Under the pieces are notes generated by a model. It did no database searches. It was not told the origin of the DNA and saw nothing but the letters and a program-made list of their open reading frames with translations. Position numbers and translations under genes: made by a program. DNA of 64,000 bases from Streptantibioticus ferralitis (GTDB lineage Bacteria; Actinomycetota; Actinomycetes; Streptomycetales; Streptomycetaceae), in the NCBI RefSeq assembly GCF_029223525.1, contig NZ_JARHTQ010000024.1, forward strand, positions 1-64,000. The letters run 5' to 3'. Shown one piece after another: positions 34 to 55,051 of the stretch. Numbering within the stretch: the stretch's first letter is position 1; each line of letters opens with the position of its first letter.

Positions 34-1533
34 TCAGTCCCGCGCCGCAGGCCCCTCGCTGTGCGGCAGCCGCAGCGTGAAGACCGTCTCACCCGGGCGG
101 CTGCGAACCTCGGCGGTACCGCCATGGGCGGCAGTGACGGCAGCCACGATAGCCAGGCCGAGACCCGCACCTCCGCCAGACGCATGGCGGCGGGAATCGC
201 CTCTGGCGAAGCGCTCGAAAACGGTGCCCTGAGCGGCCTCGGGGACCCCCGGCCCGTCGTCGATGACAGTCAGCACCGCGTGCTCGCCGCAGTCTCGTAC
301 CCCCACCTCGACCGTCGTCCCCTCGGGGGTGTGCACTCGTGCGTTGGCCAGCAGGTTGGCCAACGCCTGGTGCAGCCGGTGCCGGTCGCCGCACACGGTG
401 ACGGGCTGCTCCGGCAGGTCCAGCGTCCAGCGGTGGCCGCGGCCCGCGACCCGGGCGTCGTCGGTCGCGTCCAGCACCAGGCGGGTCAGGTCCACCGGGT
501 CCCGCTCCAGCGGCCGTCCCGCGTCCAGCCTGGCCAGCAGCAGCAGATCGTCGACCATCTCCCCCATCCGGCCCGACTCGGCCGCCACCCGGTGCACCGC
601 ATGCGTGATCTCGGGCGGCACCGGGCCGGGATGGCGCAACGCCAGCTCGGCGTGGCCGCGGATCGACGCGACCGGGGTGCGCAGCTCATGGCTGGCGTCG
701 GCGGCGAACCGGCGCAACCGCTCCTCGCTGGCATGCCGCTGCGACAGCGCGTCCTCGACATGGCTCAGCATGAGGTTGAACGCCGAGCCGACCCGGCCGA
801 CCTCGGTCCTCGGGTCCGCGTCCGGAACCCGCGCGGGCAGCGCCACCTCGCCGCTGGCCAGCGGCAGCCGGGTCACGGAGGCGGCTGTCGCCGCCACCCT
901 GCTCAGCGGGCGCAGACTCCAGCGCACCCACAGGGCACCGGCCACCCCCGCCACCACCAGCACCGCGCCGAAGACCGTGGCCGACACCAGTTCCAGCCGG
1001 TGCACGGCCGCCTCGATGCCCGCCGTGGGCAGCCCGGTGACCAGGACGTCCCCGTCGTGCCCGGGCACCGCCGCGACCCGGTAGCGGTGCAGCGCCGACA
1101 GGTGGATGTCCTGGGCGCGGCCGTCCGTCGGCAGGGCGGCGAGCGCCCGCTCGTCCGCGGCGTCCAGCGACACCGCGGTGTCGGCGCCCGAGGAGCGCAC
1201 CACGGCCACGTCCGTCACCCGCCCGCCCAGCAGCCGCGCCCCGAAGGTGCCCGGTGCCTGGCGCCGGGTGTCCGCCCGCACTCCCCCGGCGCCGCCGTCC
1301 GCCGGGTCGCCGCGACCGCCGTGCTCCAGGCTGGCCGGGAAACGGCCGCCCGCCGCGGCCAGCTGCTGGTCCAGCTGGTTGGTGAGGAAGCCGCTCAGCG
1401 ACAGCACCGCCGCCAGCCCGACCGCCGCGCACCCGACCGCGAGCAGCACGACGAGCCCGCAGGTCAGCCTGGCCCGCAGGGTCCGCGGGCGGATCCCGGC
1501 GGCGGCACGGCGCAGCAGCGGCGGCGGGTTCAC
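34..1533 (-). CDS. Two-component sensor histidine kinase
   Basis: A membrane sensor kinase of 499 residues that autophosphorylates on His and passes the phosphate to the response regulator encoded just upstream. A transmembrane helix near residues 25-45, an extracytoplasmic segment of about 130 residues, a second helix near 178-200 and a HAMP linker precede the DHp helix, whose phospho-acceptor is H282 in SHELRTP. The N box (LLANAR), DDGPGVP and GAGLGLAIV of the HATPase follow. The GTG start at 1533 overlaps the regulator's TGA as GTGA, so the two are translationally coupled; the open frame continues upstream inside the regulator but that part is not coding. The divergent flavin electron-transfer genes are the obvious targets. 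The signal sensed is unknown. Confidence 0.93.
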   Translation of the reverse strand: MNPPPLLRRAAAGIRPRTLRARLTCGLVVLLAVGCAAVGLAAVLSLSGFLTNQLDQQLAAAGGRFPASLEHGGRGDPADGGAGGVRADTRRQAPGTFGARLLGGRVTDVAVVRSSGADTAVSLDAADERALAALPTDGRAQDIHLSALHRYRVAAVPGHDGDVLVTGLPTAGIEAAVHRLELVSATVFGAVLVVAGVAGALWVRWSLRPLSRVAATAASVTRLPLASGEVALPARVPDADPRTEVGRVGSAFNLMLSHVEDALSQRHASEERLRRFAADASHELRTPVASIRGHAELALRHPGPVPPEITHAVHRVAAESGRMGEMVDDLLLLARLDAGRPLERDPVDLTRLVLDATDDARVAGRGHRWTLDLPEQPVTVCGDRHRLHQALANLLANARVHTPEGTTVEVGVRDCGEHAVLTVIDDGPGVPEAAQGTVFERFARGDSRRHASGGGAGLGLAIVAAVTAAHGGTAEVRSRPGETVFTLRLPHSEGPAARD

Positions 1534-2282
1534 CGGTCCGCCGGTTTCAGTACGTAGCCCGCACCACGGACGGTGTGGATCATCGGAGCGCGGCCCGCGT
1601 CGATCTTCTTGCGCAGGTAGCTGACGTACAGCTCCACCACGTGCGCCTTGCCTCCGAAGTCGTAGGACCACACCCGGTCGAGTATCTGCGCCTTGCTGAG
1701 CACCCGGCGCGGGTTGCGCATCAGGTACCGCAGCAGCTCGAACTCGGTCCTGGACAGTTCCACCAGCTCACCCGACCTGCTCACCTCACGGGCGTCCTCG
1801 TCCATCACCAGGTCGCCCACGATGAGAAGTGAACCATCCTCGTCGCGAAGCCGCGTCATGCCCGCCCGGCGCAGCAGCCCGCGCAGCCGGGCCACGACCT
1901 CCTCCAGGCTGAACGGTTTGGTGACGTAGTCGTCACCGCCCGCCGTCAGACCCGCGATCCGGTCCTCCACCGCGTCCCGCGCGGTGAGGAACAGCACGCA
2001 CACCTGCGGCTGCTCCGCGCGCAGCCGCCGCAGCACCTCGAAGCCGTCGACGTCCGGCAGCATGACGTCGAGCACCACGGCGTCGGGCCGCAGTTCACGG
2101 GCGGCGGCGAGCGCGGAGGCGCCATCGGCGGCGGTTCGCACCTGCCAGCCCTCGTAGCGCAGGACACCGGAGAGCACATCGGCCAGATCCGGTTCGTCGT
2201 CCACGACCAGGACACGGACGGGGGTGCCGTCCTCGCGGGTGAGCGACGGCAGGCGGCGGGAGGGGGCGCTGGGGTTCGTCAT
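1530..2282 (-). CDS. OmpR-family response regulator
   Basis: A 250-residue DNA-binding response regulator. The receiver domain (about residues 22-140) has the acidic pair in VVDDEPD, the phospho-acceptor D72 in VVLDVMLPD and the conserved Lys in YVTKPF. A winged-helix Trans_Reg_C domain occupies about 150-248 (RTEFELLRYLM, then GGKAHVVELYVSYLRKKI). The ATG at 2282 faces the divergent ferric-reductase-like gene across 126 bp. That gap holds two pairs of TCTGA-type hexamers each repeated at 11 bp, the geometry OmpR/PhoB proteins bind, so autoregulation and control of the divergent genes are likely. Confidence 0.95.
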   Translation of the reverse strand: MTNPSAPSRRLPSLTREDGTPVRVLVVDDEPDLADVLSGVLRYEGWQVRTAADGASALAAARELRPDAVVLDVMLPDVDGFEVLRRLRAEQPQVCVLFLTARDAVEDRIAGLTAGGDDYVTKPFSLEEVVARLRGLLRRAGMTRLRDEDGSLLIVGDLVMDEDAREVSRSGELVELSRTEFELLRYLMRNPRRVLSKAQILDRVWSYDFGGKAHVVELYVSYLRKKIDAGRAPMIHTVRGAGYVLKPADR

Positions 2283-2308
2283 GATGCCTACAGGATTGCG
2301 CGGCCACT

Positions 2309-2361
2309 TCTGAGTTTCCTCTGAAGCCGCTCTACGGCCGCCCCCTCAGAGGCTCCTCAGA
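2309..2361. promoter_or_regulatory. Candidate OmpR-type operator: paired 11-bp direct repeats
   Basis: TCTGAG at 2309 and TCTGAA at 2320 form one 11-bp direct repeat. CCTCAGA at 2344 and 2355 (TCTGAGG on the minus strand) form a second, facing the first. One-helical-turn direct repeats are typical binding sites of OmpR/PhoB-family regulators. The site lies between the response-regulator start (2282) and the flavocytochrome start (2409). Assignment to this regulator is inferred. Confidence 0.5.
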
Positions 2362-2408
2362 ACTTACCGGGGCACAGTGGGCCGTCCGGTAAGCGGAAGG
2401 AGCCACTG

Positions 2409-3779
2409 GTGACCACCACGTACGACGGTAGGGCGGTGCGCAGGCACGCCGCGCCGCCGCTACGCGCACGGCGCTCGCCCGCACCGCTGATCCTCGCGCT
2501 GGTCCACCTGGGAGCGGCCGGGGTGCTCGCCCTGTGGTGGACCGGCACCTCCTCGGTCGTCGGGACCGACGGCTGGCTGGTCGGCGCGGGCCGGATCGCC
2601 GGGCTGCTCACCGGCTACACCTGCGCCGTGCTCGTCGCGCTGATGGCCAGGGTGCCCGCGCTGGAGCGCGGCGTCGGAAGCGACCGGGTGGCGCGCTGGC
2701 ACGCGATGGCCGGGCGGTGGACGGTGAGTCTGCTGGCGGTGCACGCGGGCTGCGTCCTGCTGGGGTACGCGATGCAGGACCACAGCTCGCTGGTGCACGA
2801 GACGCTGAACGTGGTGCTGCACTACCCGGACATGCTCAAGGGCACGCTGGGCGCGGTGATCCTGGTGGCCGTCGGGTTGCTGTCGGCGCGCGCCGTGCGC
2901 CGCCGGGTCGCCTACGAAACCTGGTACTACCTCCACCTGCTGACGTACGTCGCGGTCTTCCTCGCCTTCTTCCACCAGCTGTCGCTGGGCGCCCAGTTCG
3001 CCGGGAACGCGGTGGCGCAGGCGGCCTGGTACCTGTTGTACGGCGGGGCGGCGGGTCTGGTGCTGTGGTACCGGGTGCTGGCTCCGGTACGGCTCAACGC
3101 GCGGCACCGGTTGCGGGTGGAGTCGGTGGTGCGGGAGGCGCCGGACGTCCACTCCGTGCTGATCCGCGGCGAGCGGTTGGCCGAACTCGGCGCGGAGCCC
3201 GGGCAGTTCCTGCGCTGGCGCTTCCTGTCCGGGGCGCTGCGCTGGACCGCCACGCCGTACTCGCTCTCCGCCGCGCCCCGCCATGACCGGCTGCGGATCA
3301 CCGTCAAGGCGGCGGGCGGCCACAGCGCTGCGCTGGCGGGGTTGCGGCCGGGCACCCGGGTGTGGGCGGAGGGACCGTACGGGGCACTCACCGCGGGCCG
3401 CCGCTCGCGCCGCAAGGTGCTGCTGGTCGCCGGAGGTGTGGGCATCACGCCGCTGCGCGCGCTGTTCGAGACGCTGCCCGCAGGGCCCGGGGATCTGACC
3501 CTGCTCTACCGCGCCCGTACCCCTGAAGACCTGGCGCTGTGGGGCGAGTTGCAGGAGATCGCCTCGGTGCGAGGTGCGCGCGTGTACAGCGCGGTCAACG
3601 GCCCGGACGGCCGCCGCGCCGACATCAGCGCGGCCGCGCTGCGCACGGTGCTCCCGGACATCGCCGAGCACGACGCCTATCTGTGCGGTCCACCGGGCCT
3701 GATGGAGCAGGCCCACGCGGCGCTACGGGAGGCCGGGGTGCCGGGCCGCCGGATCCACCACGAGTCCTTCGAACTGTGA
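2409..3779 (+). CDS. Ferric-reductase-like transmembrane flavocytochrome
   Basis: A 456-residue fusion of a heme-binding ferric-reductase/NOX-like membrane domain and a cytosolic FAD/NAD(P)H oxidoreductase. About six helices span residues 25-230. Candidate heme ligands are the His in RWHAMAGRW, LLAVHAG, YYLHLL and FFHQL. The soluble half has the FAD motif TPYSLS, the GGHSAAL segment, a nucleotide-binding VAGGVGITPL and a terminal CGPPGLM. It should pass electrons from cytosolic NAD(P)H through FAD and heme to the outer face of the membrane. The GTG start has AAGGAG 6-7 bases upstream. The next two genes encode an exported FMN-binding protein and its flavin transferase, so the probable acceptor is covalent FMN rather than iron itself. 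Confidence 0.88.
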   Translation: MTTTYDGRAVRRHAAPPLRARRSPAPLILALVHLGAAGVLALWWTGTSSVVGTDGWLVGAGRIAGLLTGYTCAVLVALMARVPALERGVGSDRVARWHAMAGRWTVSLLAVHAGCVLLGYAMQDHSSLVHETLNVVLHYPDMLKGTLGAVILVAVGLLSARAVRRRVAYETWYYLHLLTYVAVFLAFFHQLSLGAQFAGNAVAQAAWYLLYGGAAGLVLWYRVLAPVRLNARHRLRVESVVREAPDVHSVLIRGERLAELGAEPGQFLRWRFLSGALRWTATPYSLSAAPRHDRLRITVKAAGGHSAALAGLRPGTRVWAEGPYGALTAGRRSRRKVLLVAGGVGITPLRALFETLPAGPGDLTLLYRARTPEDLALWGELQEIASVRGARVYSAVNGPDGRRADISAAALRTVLPDIAEHDAYLCGPPGLMEQAHAALREAGVPGRRIHHESFEL

Positions 3780-3789
3780 GCAGGAGCAT

Positions 3790-4272
3790 ATGTTGACCAG
3801 GAATCCGCTGCGTCGAACCGTCCTGGGCGCCGCCGCGACGGTCTCCGGGATCGTGCTGCTGCTCGCCCTCAAGCCGCACTCCGCCCCGGCCCCGGCGCTG
3901 GCGCACGCCACCGCCCCCACCAGCCCCCCGACGTCGTCGGCAGGCGCACCGTCAACAGGCGCGCCGTCAAAGGGCGGTACGGCTCCGGCGAAACGCACGG
4001 GCACGGTCACCGGCAGCACGGTGCAGACCGACTACGGCCCCGTACAGGTCCAGGCGACCTTCGCCAACGGGCGGATCACCGGGGTCACCGCCCTGCAGAC
4101 GCCGTCGGACAACCCACGCGACCAGGAGATCGCCTCGTACGCCGTGCCCCAGTTGACCCGGGAGGCGATCGCCGCGCAGAGCGCGCACATCGACGCGGTG
4201 TCCGGGGCCAGTTACACCAGCGCGGGCTACATCCAGTCGCTGCAGAGCGCGTTGGACCGGGCCGGTGGCTGA
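3790..4272 (+). CDS. Exported FMN-binding domain protein (flavinylation target)
   Basis: A 160-residue protein with an N-terminal hydrophobic signal or anchor (about residues 9-29), a Ser/Thr/Pro/Ala-rich linker to about 70, and one FMN_bind domain to the C-terminus. The flavinylation motif is SGASYT, with T143 the predicted covalent FMN attachment site, as in NqrC/RnfG-type proteins. It starts 10 bp after the flavocytochrome stop, with CAGGAG just before the ATG, and its 3' end overlaps apbE by 8 bp. It probably works as an extracytosolic one- or two-electron carrier fed by the upstream flavocytochrome. The final acceptor is not visible here. Confidence 0.87.
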   Translation: MLTRNPLRRTVLGAAATVSGIVLLLALKPHSAPAPALAHATAPTSPPTSSAGAPSTGAPSKGGTAPAKRTGTVTGSTVQTDYGPVQVQATFANGRITGVTALQTPSDNPRDQEIASYAVPQLTREAIAAQSAHIDAVSGASYTSAGYIQSLQSALDRAGG

Positions 4273-5044
4273 GCGGCGGCGGTTGCGGCACGTCGAGGAG
4301 GCCATGGGCACGGTCTTCTCGTTCGACATCGCGTGCGACGGCGGGCCGCGGGTGCGCTCCGCCATCGAGGCGGCGGTGGCCTCGCTGCACACGGCGGACG
4401 CGGTCTTCTCCACCTACCGGCCGGACAGCCAGCTGTCCCGACTCGCCCGGGGCGAGGTGGACCTCGCGCGGTGCGACGCGGACGTGGCCGAGGTTCTGCG
4501 GCTGTGCGAGCGGGCGCGGGAGCGGACCGACGGCTGGTTCAGCGCCGGATACGCGGGCGGCCTCGACCCCACCGGCCTGGTCAAGGGGTGGGCGGTGGAG
4601 CGTGCGGCGCGCATGATCTCAGAGGCGGGGGCGAGGGGCGTGTGCGTCAACGGCGGCGGTGACATCCAACTGCTCGGGGAGCCGGAGCCCGGCCAGCCCT
4701 GGCGGGTGGGCATCGCGCATCCGCTGCGGCCGGGCGAGCTGGCCACCGTGGTCGAGGGCGCCGACGAGCTGGCGGTGGCCACCTCGGGGACGGCGGAACG
4801 CGGCTGCCATGTGCTGGACCCGCGCAGCGGACGCCCACCGGTCGACGCGGCCGCCTCGGTGACCGTGCTGGCCCGCTCCCTGGCCGACGCCGACGCCTGG
4901 GCCACGGCGGCCTTCGCGATGGGCACCCGGGCGCGCCACTGGCTCGACGCCCAGGCGGGCGTCGAGGGCTTTGCGGTCACCGCCGACGGCGGCACCTGGC
5001 GGACCACCCGGTTCGACCGGGTGTCCGCAGTTCGCTGCAGCTAG
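4265..5044 (+). CDS. apbE: FAD:protein FMN transferase (ApbE family)
   Basis: A 259-residue ApbE-family flavin transferase, which transfers FMN from FAD to the Thr of the SGAST-type motif in exported proteins. Family signatures are the N-terminal AMGTVFSFDI, the central DPTGLVKGWAVERA and CVNGGGDIQ, and ATSGTAERGCHVLDPRSG with the Mg/FAD-binding region. No clear signal peptide is seen; several actinobacterial ApbE proteins likewise lack one, so the side of the membrane on which it acts is uncertain. The GTG start lies inside the 3' end of the FMN-binding gene (8-bp overlap), indicating coupled expression. Its substrate is almost certainly that neighbour. Confidence 0.93.
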   Translation: MAERRRLRHVEEAMGTVFSFDIACDGGPRVRSAIEAAVASLHTADAVFSTYRPDSQLSRLARGEVDLARCDADVAEVLRLCERARERTDGWFSAGYAGGLDPTGLVKGWAVERAARMISEAGARGVCVNGGGDIQLLGEPEPGQPWRVGIAHPLRPGELATVVEGADELAVATSGTAERGCHVLDPRSGRPPVDAAASVTVLARSLADADAWATAAFAMGTRARHWLDAQAGVEGFAVTADGGTWRTTRFDRVSAVRCS

Positions 5045-54130: not shown

Positions 54131-55051
54131 CTACGTGGCGTCGTCGAAGCCGTCGTGCGAATCGGTCGCCGAGGGGGCGGACACCGGCTCGATCTCGGGG
54201 AGGGCCTCAGGGGTCAGGTCGAGATCGGAGGCCTCGTCGGGGCTGAGCCCGTCGTCCGAGCGGCGGGCCTTGCGCTTGTCGTGCAGCAGCGAGATGCCGA
54301 CCGCCAGGAAGAACAGGGCACAGATCGGCGCGGCCAGCGCGAGCATCGACAGCGGGTCGGGGCTGGGTACCGCGATCGCGGAGAAGACGGTGATGCCCAT
54401 GACCATCCAGCGCCACCAGCCCAGCATCCGGCGCCCGCTCAGCACTCCACCGAAGTTGAGCAGCACCAGCAGCAGCGGCAGCTCGAAGGAGAGGCCGAAG
54501 ACCAGCACCATCCGCACCAGCAGGTCCAAGTAGCCTTCCAGCGGCACCAGGTTGGTCACATGGTCCGGGGTCAGGCCGATGAGCGCCTTGGCGGTGGTCG
54601 GGATGATGGTGTACGCGAACCAGGCACCGCCGAGGAACAGCGGGAACCCGGCGCCGACGAAGCTCAGCGCGTACTTCTTCTCGTGCCTGTGCAGACCGGG
54701 CGCGAGGAAGGCCCACACCTGGTAGAGCCAGACCGGCGAGGCCACGACCACGCCCGCCATCAGGCCGACCTTGAGCATGACGGTGAACGGACCCAGCAGC
54801 CCGTTGATGTTGAGCGTCGCGCAGTGCTCGCCGTGCTTCGCGATCTGGTTGAACCCGGAGACACAGCCGACCGACCTGCGCAGCGGCTGGGTGAGGAAGT
54901 CGGCCAGCTGGGTGTGGTAGACCAGTGCGACGACGGTGACCGCGCCGATCGCGAGCAGCGACTTCAGCAAGCGGTTGCGCAGCTCACGGAGGTGGTCCGC
55001 GAGCGGCATCCGCCCCTCGGGGTCCTTCGTCTTGCGGGCGGACTTGAGCAA
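54131..55051 (-). CDS. tatC: Twin-arginine translocase subunit TatC
   Basis: A 306-residue TatC with the N-terminal DPEGRMPLADHLRELRNRLLKS signature and six transmembrane helices, including VASPVWLYQVWAFLAPGLHRHEKKYA and LPLLLVLLNFGGVLSGRRMLG. The C-terminal tail is acidic and long. The start is read as TTG at 55051 because MLKSARK-type N-termini are typical. TatC is the receptor for Tat signals such as that on the GHL10-type hydrolase here. The tatA gene usually beside it is not found. Confidence 0.96.
   Translation of the reverse strand: MLKSARKTKDPEGRMPLADHLRELRNRLLKSLLAIGAVTVVALVYHTQLADFLTQPLRRSVGCVSGFNQIAKHGEHCATLNINGLLGPFTVMLKVGLMAGVVVASPVWLYQVWAFLAPGLHRHEKKYALSFVGAGFPLFLGGAWFAYTIIPTTAKALIGLTPDHVTNLVPLEGYLDLLVRMVLVFGLSFELPLLLVLLNFGGVLSGRRMLGWWRWMVMGITVFSAIAVPSPDPLSMLALAAPICALFFLAVGISLLHDKRKARRSDDGLSPDEASDLDLTPEALPEIEPVSAPSATDSHDGFDDAT

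Follow-up and report, generated by a model that had tools for sequence, protein, structure and literature searches.

Could five adjacent genes give an actinomycete an electron-export pathway that is switched on when needed? The question is raised by a locus in a 64,000-nucleotide stretch of the Streptantibioticus ferralitis genome (contig NZ_JARHTQ010000024.1, positions 1 to 64,000; hereafter the window). Open reading frames (ORFs) and Pfam matches there reveal a three-gene operon encoding a flavocytochrome (FR), an FMN_bind protein (FB), and the flavin mononucleotide (FMN) transferase ApbE, divergent from the genes for an OmpR/PhoB-type response regulator and its sensor histidine kinase. A first-pass annotation had described such a tight operon facing an OmpR-type pair, and every part of it is encoded where that annotation placed it. 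Taken as a whole, the locus is probably an inducible transmembrane electron-export module. The evidence at sequence level consists of the gene content, the cofactor residues, an operator that is conserved and, in the genus, nearly private to the locus, and an ApbE that lacks a leader.

A NADPH oxidase-like flavocytochrome in a known cluster type

What would carry electrons across the membrane? FR matches Ferric_reduct (PF01794, E = 6.7e-18) and NAD_binding_1 (PF00175, E = 5.8e-11), and four of its histidines, H98, H112, H176, and H189, are invariant among 22 aligned FRs with identities down to 40%. These matches and residues bear out the heme and flavin adenine dinucleotide (FAD)/NAD sites predicted by the first-pass annotation. 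The histidines are spaced 14 and 13 residues apart, which in flavocytochromes of the FR type fits two stacked b hemes. The predicted structure of FR (mean predicted local distance difference test score, pLDDT, 85) finds its best solved match in SpNOX, the NADPH oxidase (NOX) of Streptococcus pneumoniae (8qta, E = 1.1e-18), with further fold matches to NOX2, DUOX, and NOX5, and to flavohemoglobins via the reductase domain. A sequence search gives a concordant result (8qt6, E = 9.5e-12). Since fold match and sequence search agree, FR is, on its modelled structure, a transmembrane electron carrier of the NOX kind whose NAD(P)H site is cytosolic; it combines two membrane histidine pairs, a FAD/NAD(P)H domain, and a predicted NOX fold. 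The direction of electron flow through it is suggested by the same fold. SpNOX and other NADPH oxidases share the membrane histidine pairs and the FAD/NADPH domain, but FR is only 17-18% identical to this family, and oxidase activity of FR is a prediction. We know of no FMN_bind partner of SpNOX.

Is this combination of genes new? By its domain content, the module is of the "MsrQ-like" flavinylation cluster type, which is already known: 1797 such clusters, broadly conserved in Actinobacteria and 1437 of them with PF00175, have been reported (Meheust et al. 2021, PMC8238504). As in those clusters, a PF01794 gene, often with PF00175, accompanies an FMN_bind protein and ApbE. The published definition asks for an FMN_bind or ApbE gene no more than five genes away from the PF01794 gene; here they are adjacent, all above Pfam cut-offs, and FR bears PF00175 at its C-terminus. 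The same source proposes NAD(P)H as the donor and counts a cluster only if at least one component carries a predicted signal. MsrQ structure is treated elsewhere (PMC11334425). In its excerpted form, the description in PMC8238504 lacks three features of the window: two-component control, an operator, and a leaderless ApbE paired with an exported target. Two-component control of an MsrQ-like cluster, and a cytosolic ApbE with a Tat-type target (Tat, twin-arginine translocation), are likewise combinations of which we found no description in the literature searched, to which subscription papers were largely external. Judged from the genes, therefore, what would be new relative to the published cluster type is control by a two-component system with its operator, and the pairing of a leaderless ApbE with an exported target.

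The predicted flavin site of FB

Near its C-terminus, FB carries the sequence DAVSGASYT. The ApbE motif is D-x-x-[S/T]-G-A-[S/T] with FMN attached to the last residue, at which Thr is preferred and Ser accepted (PMC12052999, in the part available). Residues 135-141 of FB, DAVSGAS, fit this motif, and since its final residue is Ser141, the flavin acceptor by the published motif is Ser141 and not Thr143, the residue to which the first-pass annotation had assigned the flavin. Among 300 motif matches in related FBs, the acceptor position holds Thr 222 times and Ser 78 times; two positions past the acceptor, Thr occurs in 249. Thr143 is invariant in an alignment of 13 FBs, chosen for diversity and clean starts, and from the sequence it is a conserved neighbour of the predicted flavin site. 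Among the 204 FB ORFs counted, 92 have at least two FMN-motif matches.

The closest solved relative of FB is 8p2a, a domain of SaFMN3 from Streptomyces azureus (E = 3.9e-24); the second FB of a tandem locus (L189) matches the same structure at 137 bits. SaFMN3 has been purified with covalent FMN, has a midpoint potential of -184 mV, reacts with O2, and has an electron donor reported as unknown (PMC10339131; PDB 8p2a, in the sections accessible). It has three FMN domains and a Thr acceptor, whereas FB of the window has one domain and the motif residue Ser141. FR is the obvious candidate for the natural electron donor of SaFMN3. A structure model of FB itself is poor (mean pLDDT 62) and was left out of all conclusions.

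Probable two-component control

Is the divergent two-component system dedicated to this operon? A divergent regulator gene adjoins FR in 103 of 156 distinct loci: 47 of 81 in the set that contains the window, where these loci span 15 genera, and 56 of 75 in a second, named set. The complete set of five genes is present in 37 of the 81 and 40 of the 75 loci, several others being cut by contig ends, and this co-occurrence argues that the grouping did not arise by chance.

The intergenic region of the window contains two direct repeats, one facing each gene. From these the operator pattern YTCAGAG-N4-YTCAGAR was written, its final letters having been set after relatives had been viewed, so that the counts are not blind; shuffles and the reversed pattern served as controls in 96 non-redundant loci outside the genus. 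An FR-facing operator within two mismatches is present in 91 of these 96 loci, whereas the reversed pattern matches in none of them and shuffled sequence in 0.7% of 1920 cases, although the repeat reads partly alike in both directions, so that some two-mismatch sites are the opposite strand's site. At zero or one mismatch, the operator is found on the FR side in 72 and on the regulator side in 61 of the 96. A hexamer of the form xAnnnT lies exactly 10 bp past the FR-facing operator in 86 of the 94 loci with a site, a spacing that would place the second half-site at -35. A half-site at -35 is the usual layout of PhoB-type activation. A regulator with receiver and winged-helix domains, a HisKA kinase, and a predicted direct-repeat operator overlapping the -35 region together conform to the OmpR/PhoB type.

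In the 8.8-Mb genome of the strain, the exact operator occurs twice, both times between the regulator and FR genes. No wider regulon was found there at exact match, and the four one-mismatch matches elsewhere equal the four of the reversed-pattern control. In genomes G000, G001, G002, G007, G009, and G010 combined, all nine exact matches lie in the intergenic region of the module. Divergent pairing across 15 genera, a conserved operator, and the confinement of both exact matches in the genome to this region strongly support regulation of the operon by the two-component system, as predicted when the system was first called dedicated.

The extracytoplasmic domain of the kinase is conserved across 99 aligned kinases. 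Around residues 114-117 it carries SLEH, and a Cys in the first transmembrane segment (C81) is found in 84% of the 99 (numbering of the 545-aa ORF); both are possible sensing residues. In genomes of another family of the order (G062-G075), several exact operator matches lie outside the module, above control. In a distant clade (L106, L111, and L116), other repeats, resembling ACGACAG, are visible by eye in the intergenic region, next to a kinase-regulator pair of lower similarity.

ApbE without a leader

Where would FB receive its flavin? The PF02424 match of the window's ApbE falls in two stretches and includes the catalytic half, and solved ApbEs are matched at E = 5.6e-16 over its residues 103-247. 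About 50 positions of the Pfam model (roughly 74-125) are unmatched, as they are in other short actinomycete copies. Leaders were sought as a 13-residue mean hydrophobicity of at least 2.0 within the 75 residues before the ApbE domain. By this measure none of the 119 distinct ApbEs encoded in the fetched FR loci has a leader; the window copy is among them, and it shows neither the signal peptide nor the lipobox of an extracytosolic ApbE. The same measure together with a lipobox rule flags a leader or transmembrane segment in 28 of 80 comparison ApbEs, a hand-picked sample of the listed matches in 246 genomes from across the phylum, and is therefore able to detect leaders.

Among 20 further related genomes searched, 19 contain ApbE. 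Thirty loci from these 19, which do not cover every match, appeared leaderless on inspection; one (L285) is just over the limit at 2.01, and by eye its segment precedes the likely start and belongs to an upstream extension. The twentieth (G029) has no ApbE match, and a search of its FR locus (L099) likewise yielded no FB, as expected if FB needs ApbE. In other lineages of the phylum, three ApbEs (L209, L214, and L223) have leaders resembling Tat lipoprotein signals, with a basic pair and a Cys box; such an ApbE is perhaps itself exported folded. Tat export of an ApbE relative has been described for NosX of Paracoccus (PMC7660919, available in part).

Two general routes to an exported cofactor protein have been outlined: the protein is either loaded with its cofactor in the cell and then exported by Tat, or exported by Sec and given the cofactor on the outer side (PMC9973259, in part). 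Because the window's ApbE is leaderless and no second ApbE was found in the genome, which also yielded a single FMN_bind gene, flavinylation before export is the simplest and most likely order, provided that FB is flavinylated at all, and on the gene sequences this inside-first order is well supported. Comparison with two characterized systems is instructive, as far as the portions of the sources in hand extend. Listeria FmnB/PplA also performs Gram-positive surface electron transfer via a covalently flavinylated exported protein, but FmnB acts outside and needs extracytosolic FAD (PMC9973259), whereas in the window no export signal is visible on ApbE and a NOX-like cytochrome would serve as the membrane donor. 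The cytosolic ApbE of Klebsiella pneumoniae likewise has no signal peptide and modifies its target inside; that target is a soluble fumarate reductase (PMC12052999), whereas the target in the window bears an export leader.

The FB leader

By which route would a flavinylated FB leave? The FB leader has a basic n-region and a hydrophobic segment; a typical FB starts with twin Arg, a hydrophobic stretch, and then a basic residue. In the 13 aligned FBs, R8 and K28 never vary and R9 hardly does, in contrast to a freely variable linker. A basic residue within five positions past the hydrophobic window is found in 161 of 190 FBs, in 15 of 187 first transmembrane segments of FR, and in none of 99 of the kinase. 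Basic residues after the hydrophobic stretch disfavour Sec and are tolerated by Tat. An automatic count finds twin Arg in 169 of 190 FBs, before the first transmembrane segment in 113 of 187 FRs, and in 36 of 99 kinases. In both comparisons the strongest hydrophobic window was used for FB and the first window for FR and the kinase, which is not fully like for like. The figure of 169 is an undercount: at least six of the 21 automatic misses (L050, L076, L079, L088, L159, and L180) show twin Arg from the listed start, and true misses include L049, L095, L096, L097, L100, L106, and L107. A strong Tat consensus includes Phe, and this Phe is missing from the FB leader. The only TatC copy found in the genome is encoded within the window. 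The leader, as it reads, fits Tat, and a Tat step is plausible. FMN_bind proteins paired with exported ApbEs might have served as a comparison; the motif yielded seven candidates, none with twin Arg, but they are too few and unmatched in G+C to be used as proof, the FB profile being too narrow for the distant FMN_bind proteins in that sample.

How the pathway may work, and what else could explain the locus

We propose the following sequence of events. An extracytoplasmic signal would activate the sensor kinase, and the regulator would bind the 11-bp direct repeats overlapping -35, turning on the operon and perhaps its own gene. The leaderless ApbE would move FMN from FAD to Ser141 of FB in the cytoplasm. 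Flavinylated FB would then cross the membrane, most likely via Tat, and stay membrane-near through its N-terminal segment. There FR would take electrons from NAD(P)H and, by way of FAD and two b hemes, hand them to the covalent FMN of FB, and the reduced FMN would pass them to a soluble wall acceptor (O2, ferric chelates, or quinones) and not to a co-encoded reductase. Within this scheme, we infer the electron direction, flavinylation before export, the Tat route, activation as opposed to repression, and the acceptor.

Several observations weigh against this scheme, for which the evidence is wholly computational. Adjacent regulator genes are lacking in 53 of the 156 distinct loci and adjacent ApbE genes in 40, some of these being contig-end cuts. 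The regulator-facing operator has no fixed -10 spacing (8 of 84 at offset 10), which makes autoregulation less certain. Of the 43 exact operator matches in the 61 genomes searched, 11 fall in the intergenic region of the module and 32 elsewhere, with six control matches; privacy of the operator appears confined to the genus and some kin, and other regulators elsewhere may use the same sequence. The operator is absent from the distant clade noted above, whose divergent regulator is of lower similarity, and regulation may have been acquired twice. As for export, in some distant FBs the pair is RK or KR or is missing, and because twin Arg is also frequent before the control transmembrane segments, we rejected it as sufficient proof of Tat. 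Moreover, T17, G20, L24, and L25 of the leader are also invariant in the 13 aligned FBs and no cleavage site is evident. On this pattern of residues, the conserved leader may equally fairly be read as a membrane anchor packing on FR.

What, then, is the electron export for? An assimilatory ferric reductase, which would serve iron uptake by using the relay to reduce Fe(III) or ferric siderophores at the cell surface, is unlikely, though not fanciful. The Ferric_reduct domain of FR favours it, as does the presence of VIT1 in 153 of the 1797 MsrQ-like clusters, where an iron role has been proposed (PMC8238504, in the part available). The neighbourhood speaks against it: the two downstream ORFs examined are of argR and argD types by Pfam, and the operon has a two-component operator of its own. 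Among ORFs of at least 110 aa within about 7 kb on each side, core-overlapping ORFs removed, no flanking family is common to more than five of 15 genera, and one reaches five; no search was aimed at VIT1 (PF01988) or a DtxR-type box. With no widely common flanking family, nothing points to a terminal reductase or metal transporter conserved beside the module, a candidate that was accordingly rejected. The same result, with the single ApbE and FMN_bind genes in the genome, agrees with the initial view of the module as self-contained.

Alternatively, FR and FB might form an extracellular oxidase that makes superoxide or H2O2 from O2, for oxygen scavenging, signalling, or competition. The prominence of SpNOX, NOX2, DUOX, and NOX5 among the best solved fold matches of the FR model is what such an enzyme would show. 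SaFMN3, too, undergoes a ready two-electron reaction with O2, for which its authors suggested oxidase roles, but that protein had been reduced with dithionite (PMC10339131, in the sections accessible). Its O2 reactivity may thus be incidental, and no flanking gene that could be a partner is widely conserved. Reduced free flavins also react with O2, which is a further reason to see the reactivity as incidental. We therefore regard a dedicated oxidase as doubtful.

Could FB instead leave unfolded through Sec and receive its FMN outside, from an ApbE that itself exits the cell via an unrecognised route? Textbook ApbEs do work outside (PMC12052999, in part), the hydrophobic FB leaders could serve Sec, and twin Arg is frequent before transmembrane segments in related genomes. 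Against this stand the absence of leaders from the 119 ApbEs and from the 30 loci inspected in 19 related genomes (L285 being borderline), the single ApbE found in the genome, and the basic residue past the hydrophobic stretch of FB, unusual for Sec. Outside flavinylation thus seems improbable. Finally, that the two-component system is a chance neighbour controlling something else is very hard to credit given divergent pairing in 15 genera, a common operator with fixed -10 spacing, and no further exact operator in the genome, even though a third of loci lack an adjacent regulator and exact matches in distant genomes lie mostly elsewhere.

Gene layout

The features of the locus that underlie the module are collected in Table 1. 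FR and FB are separated by 10 nt, and FB and ApbE overlap by 8 nt. The likely start codon of the kinase is the GTG at 1533, which overlaps the stop codon of the regulator within GTGA. The window starts at the first base of its contig, and sequence past the kinase is unreadable. The nearest named relative is Streptantibioticus rubrisoli, with an FR identity of 91%. Many Streptomyces have a tandem form, FR-FB-FR-FB-ApbE (for example L122, L126, and L189), and two FRs are present in 44 of the 75 named loci.

Table 1. Coordinates of the module, its predicted control elements, and TatC in the window.
Feature	Position	Strand	Details
Sensor histidine kinase	34..1533	-	HAMP, HisKA, HATPase_c; mechanical ORF 34-1671, 545 aa
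OmpR/PhoB-type response regulator	1530..2282	-	Response_reg E 2.4e-30, Trans_reg_C E 1.6e-26
Predicted operator toward regulator gene	2308..2325	-	direct repeat TTCAGAG-N4-CTCAGAA
Predicted operator toward FR gene	2345..2362	+	direct repeat CTCAGAG-N4-CTCAGAA
-10-like hexamer CACAGT	2373..2378	+	exactly 10 bp downstream of operator
FR, NADPH-oxidase-like/MsrQ-like flavocytochrome b with FAD/NAD(P)H reductase domain	2409..3779	+	456 aa; PF01794, PF00175
FB, exported or anchored FMN_bind protein, twin-Arg leader	3790..4272	+	160 aa; PF04205 E 1.6e-9
FAD:protein FMN transferase ApbE, short and leaderless	4265..5044	+	259 aa; PF02424 E 3.3e-45
TatC	54326..54997	-

Significance

Do actinomycetes attach FMN inside the cell via a leaderless ApbE, export the finished flavoprotein by Tat, and place the whole under a dedicated, closed-circuit two-component switch? 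We advance this combined proposal tentatively, as somewhat short of probable. If true, the circuit in the genus would comprise one sensor pair, one divergent operator pair, and one electron-export operon. An inside-first order would differ from the textbook systems, and attachment of FMN inside would solve the flavin-supply problem of surface electron transfer. FR offers a candidate for the natural electron donor of SaFMN3, which was reported as unknown (PMC10339131, in part). The conserved operator and sensor, in turn, offer a way to approach the signal for electron export in actinomycetes.

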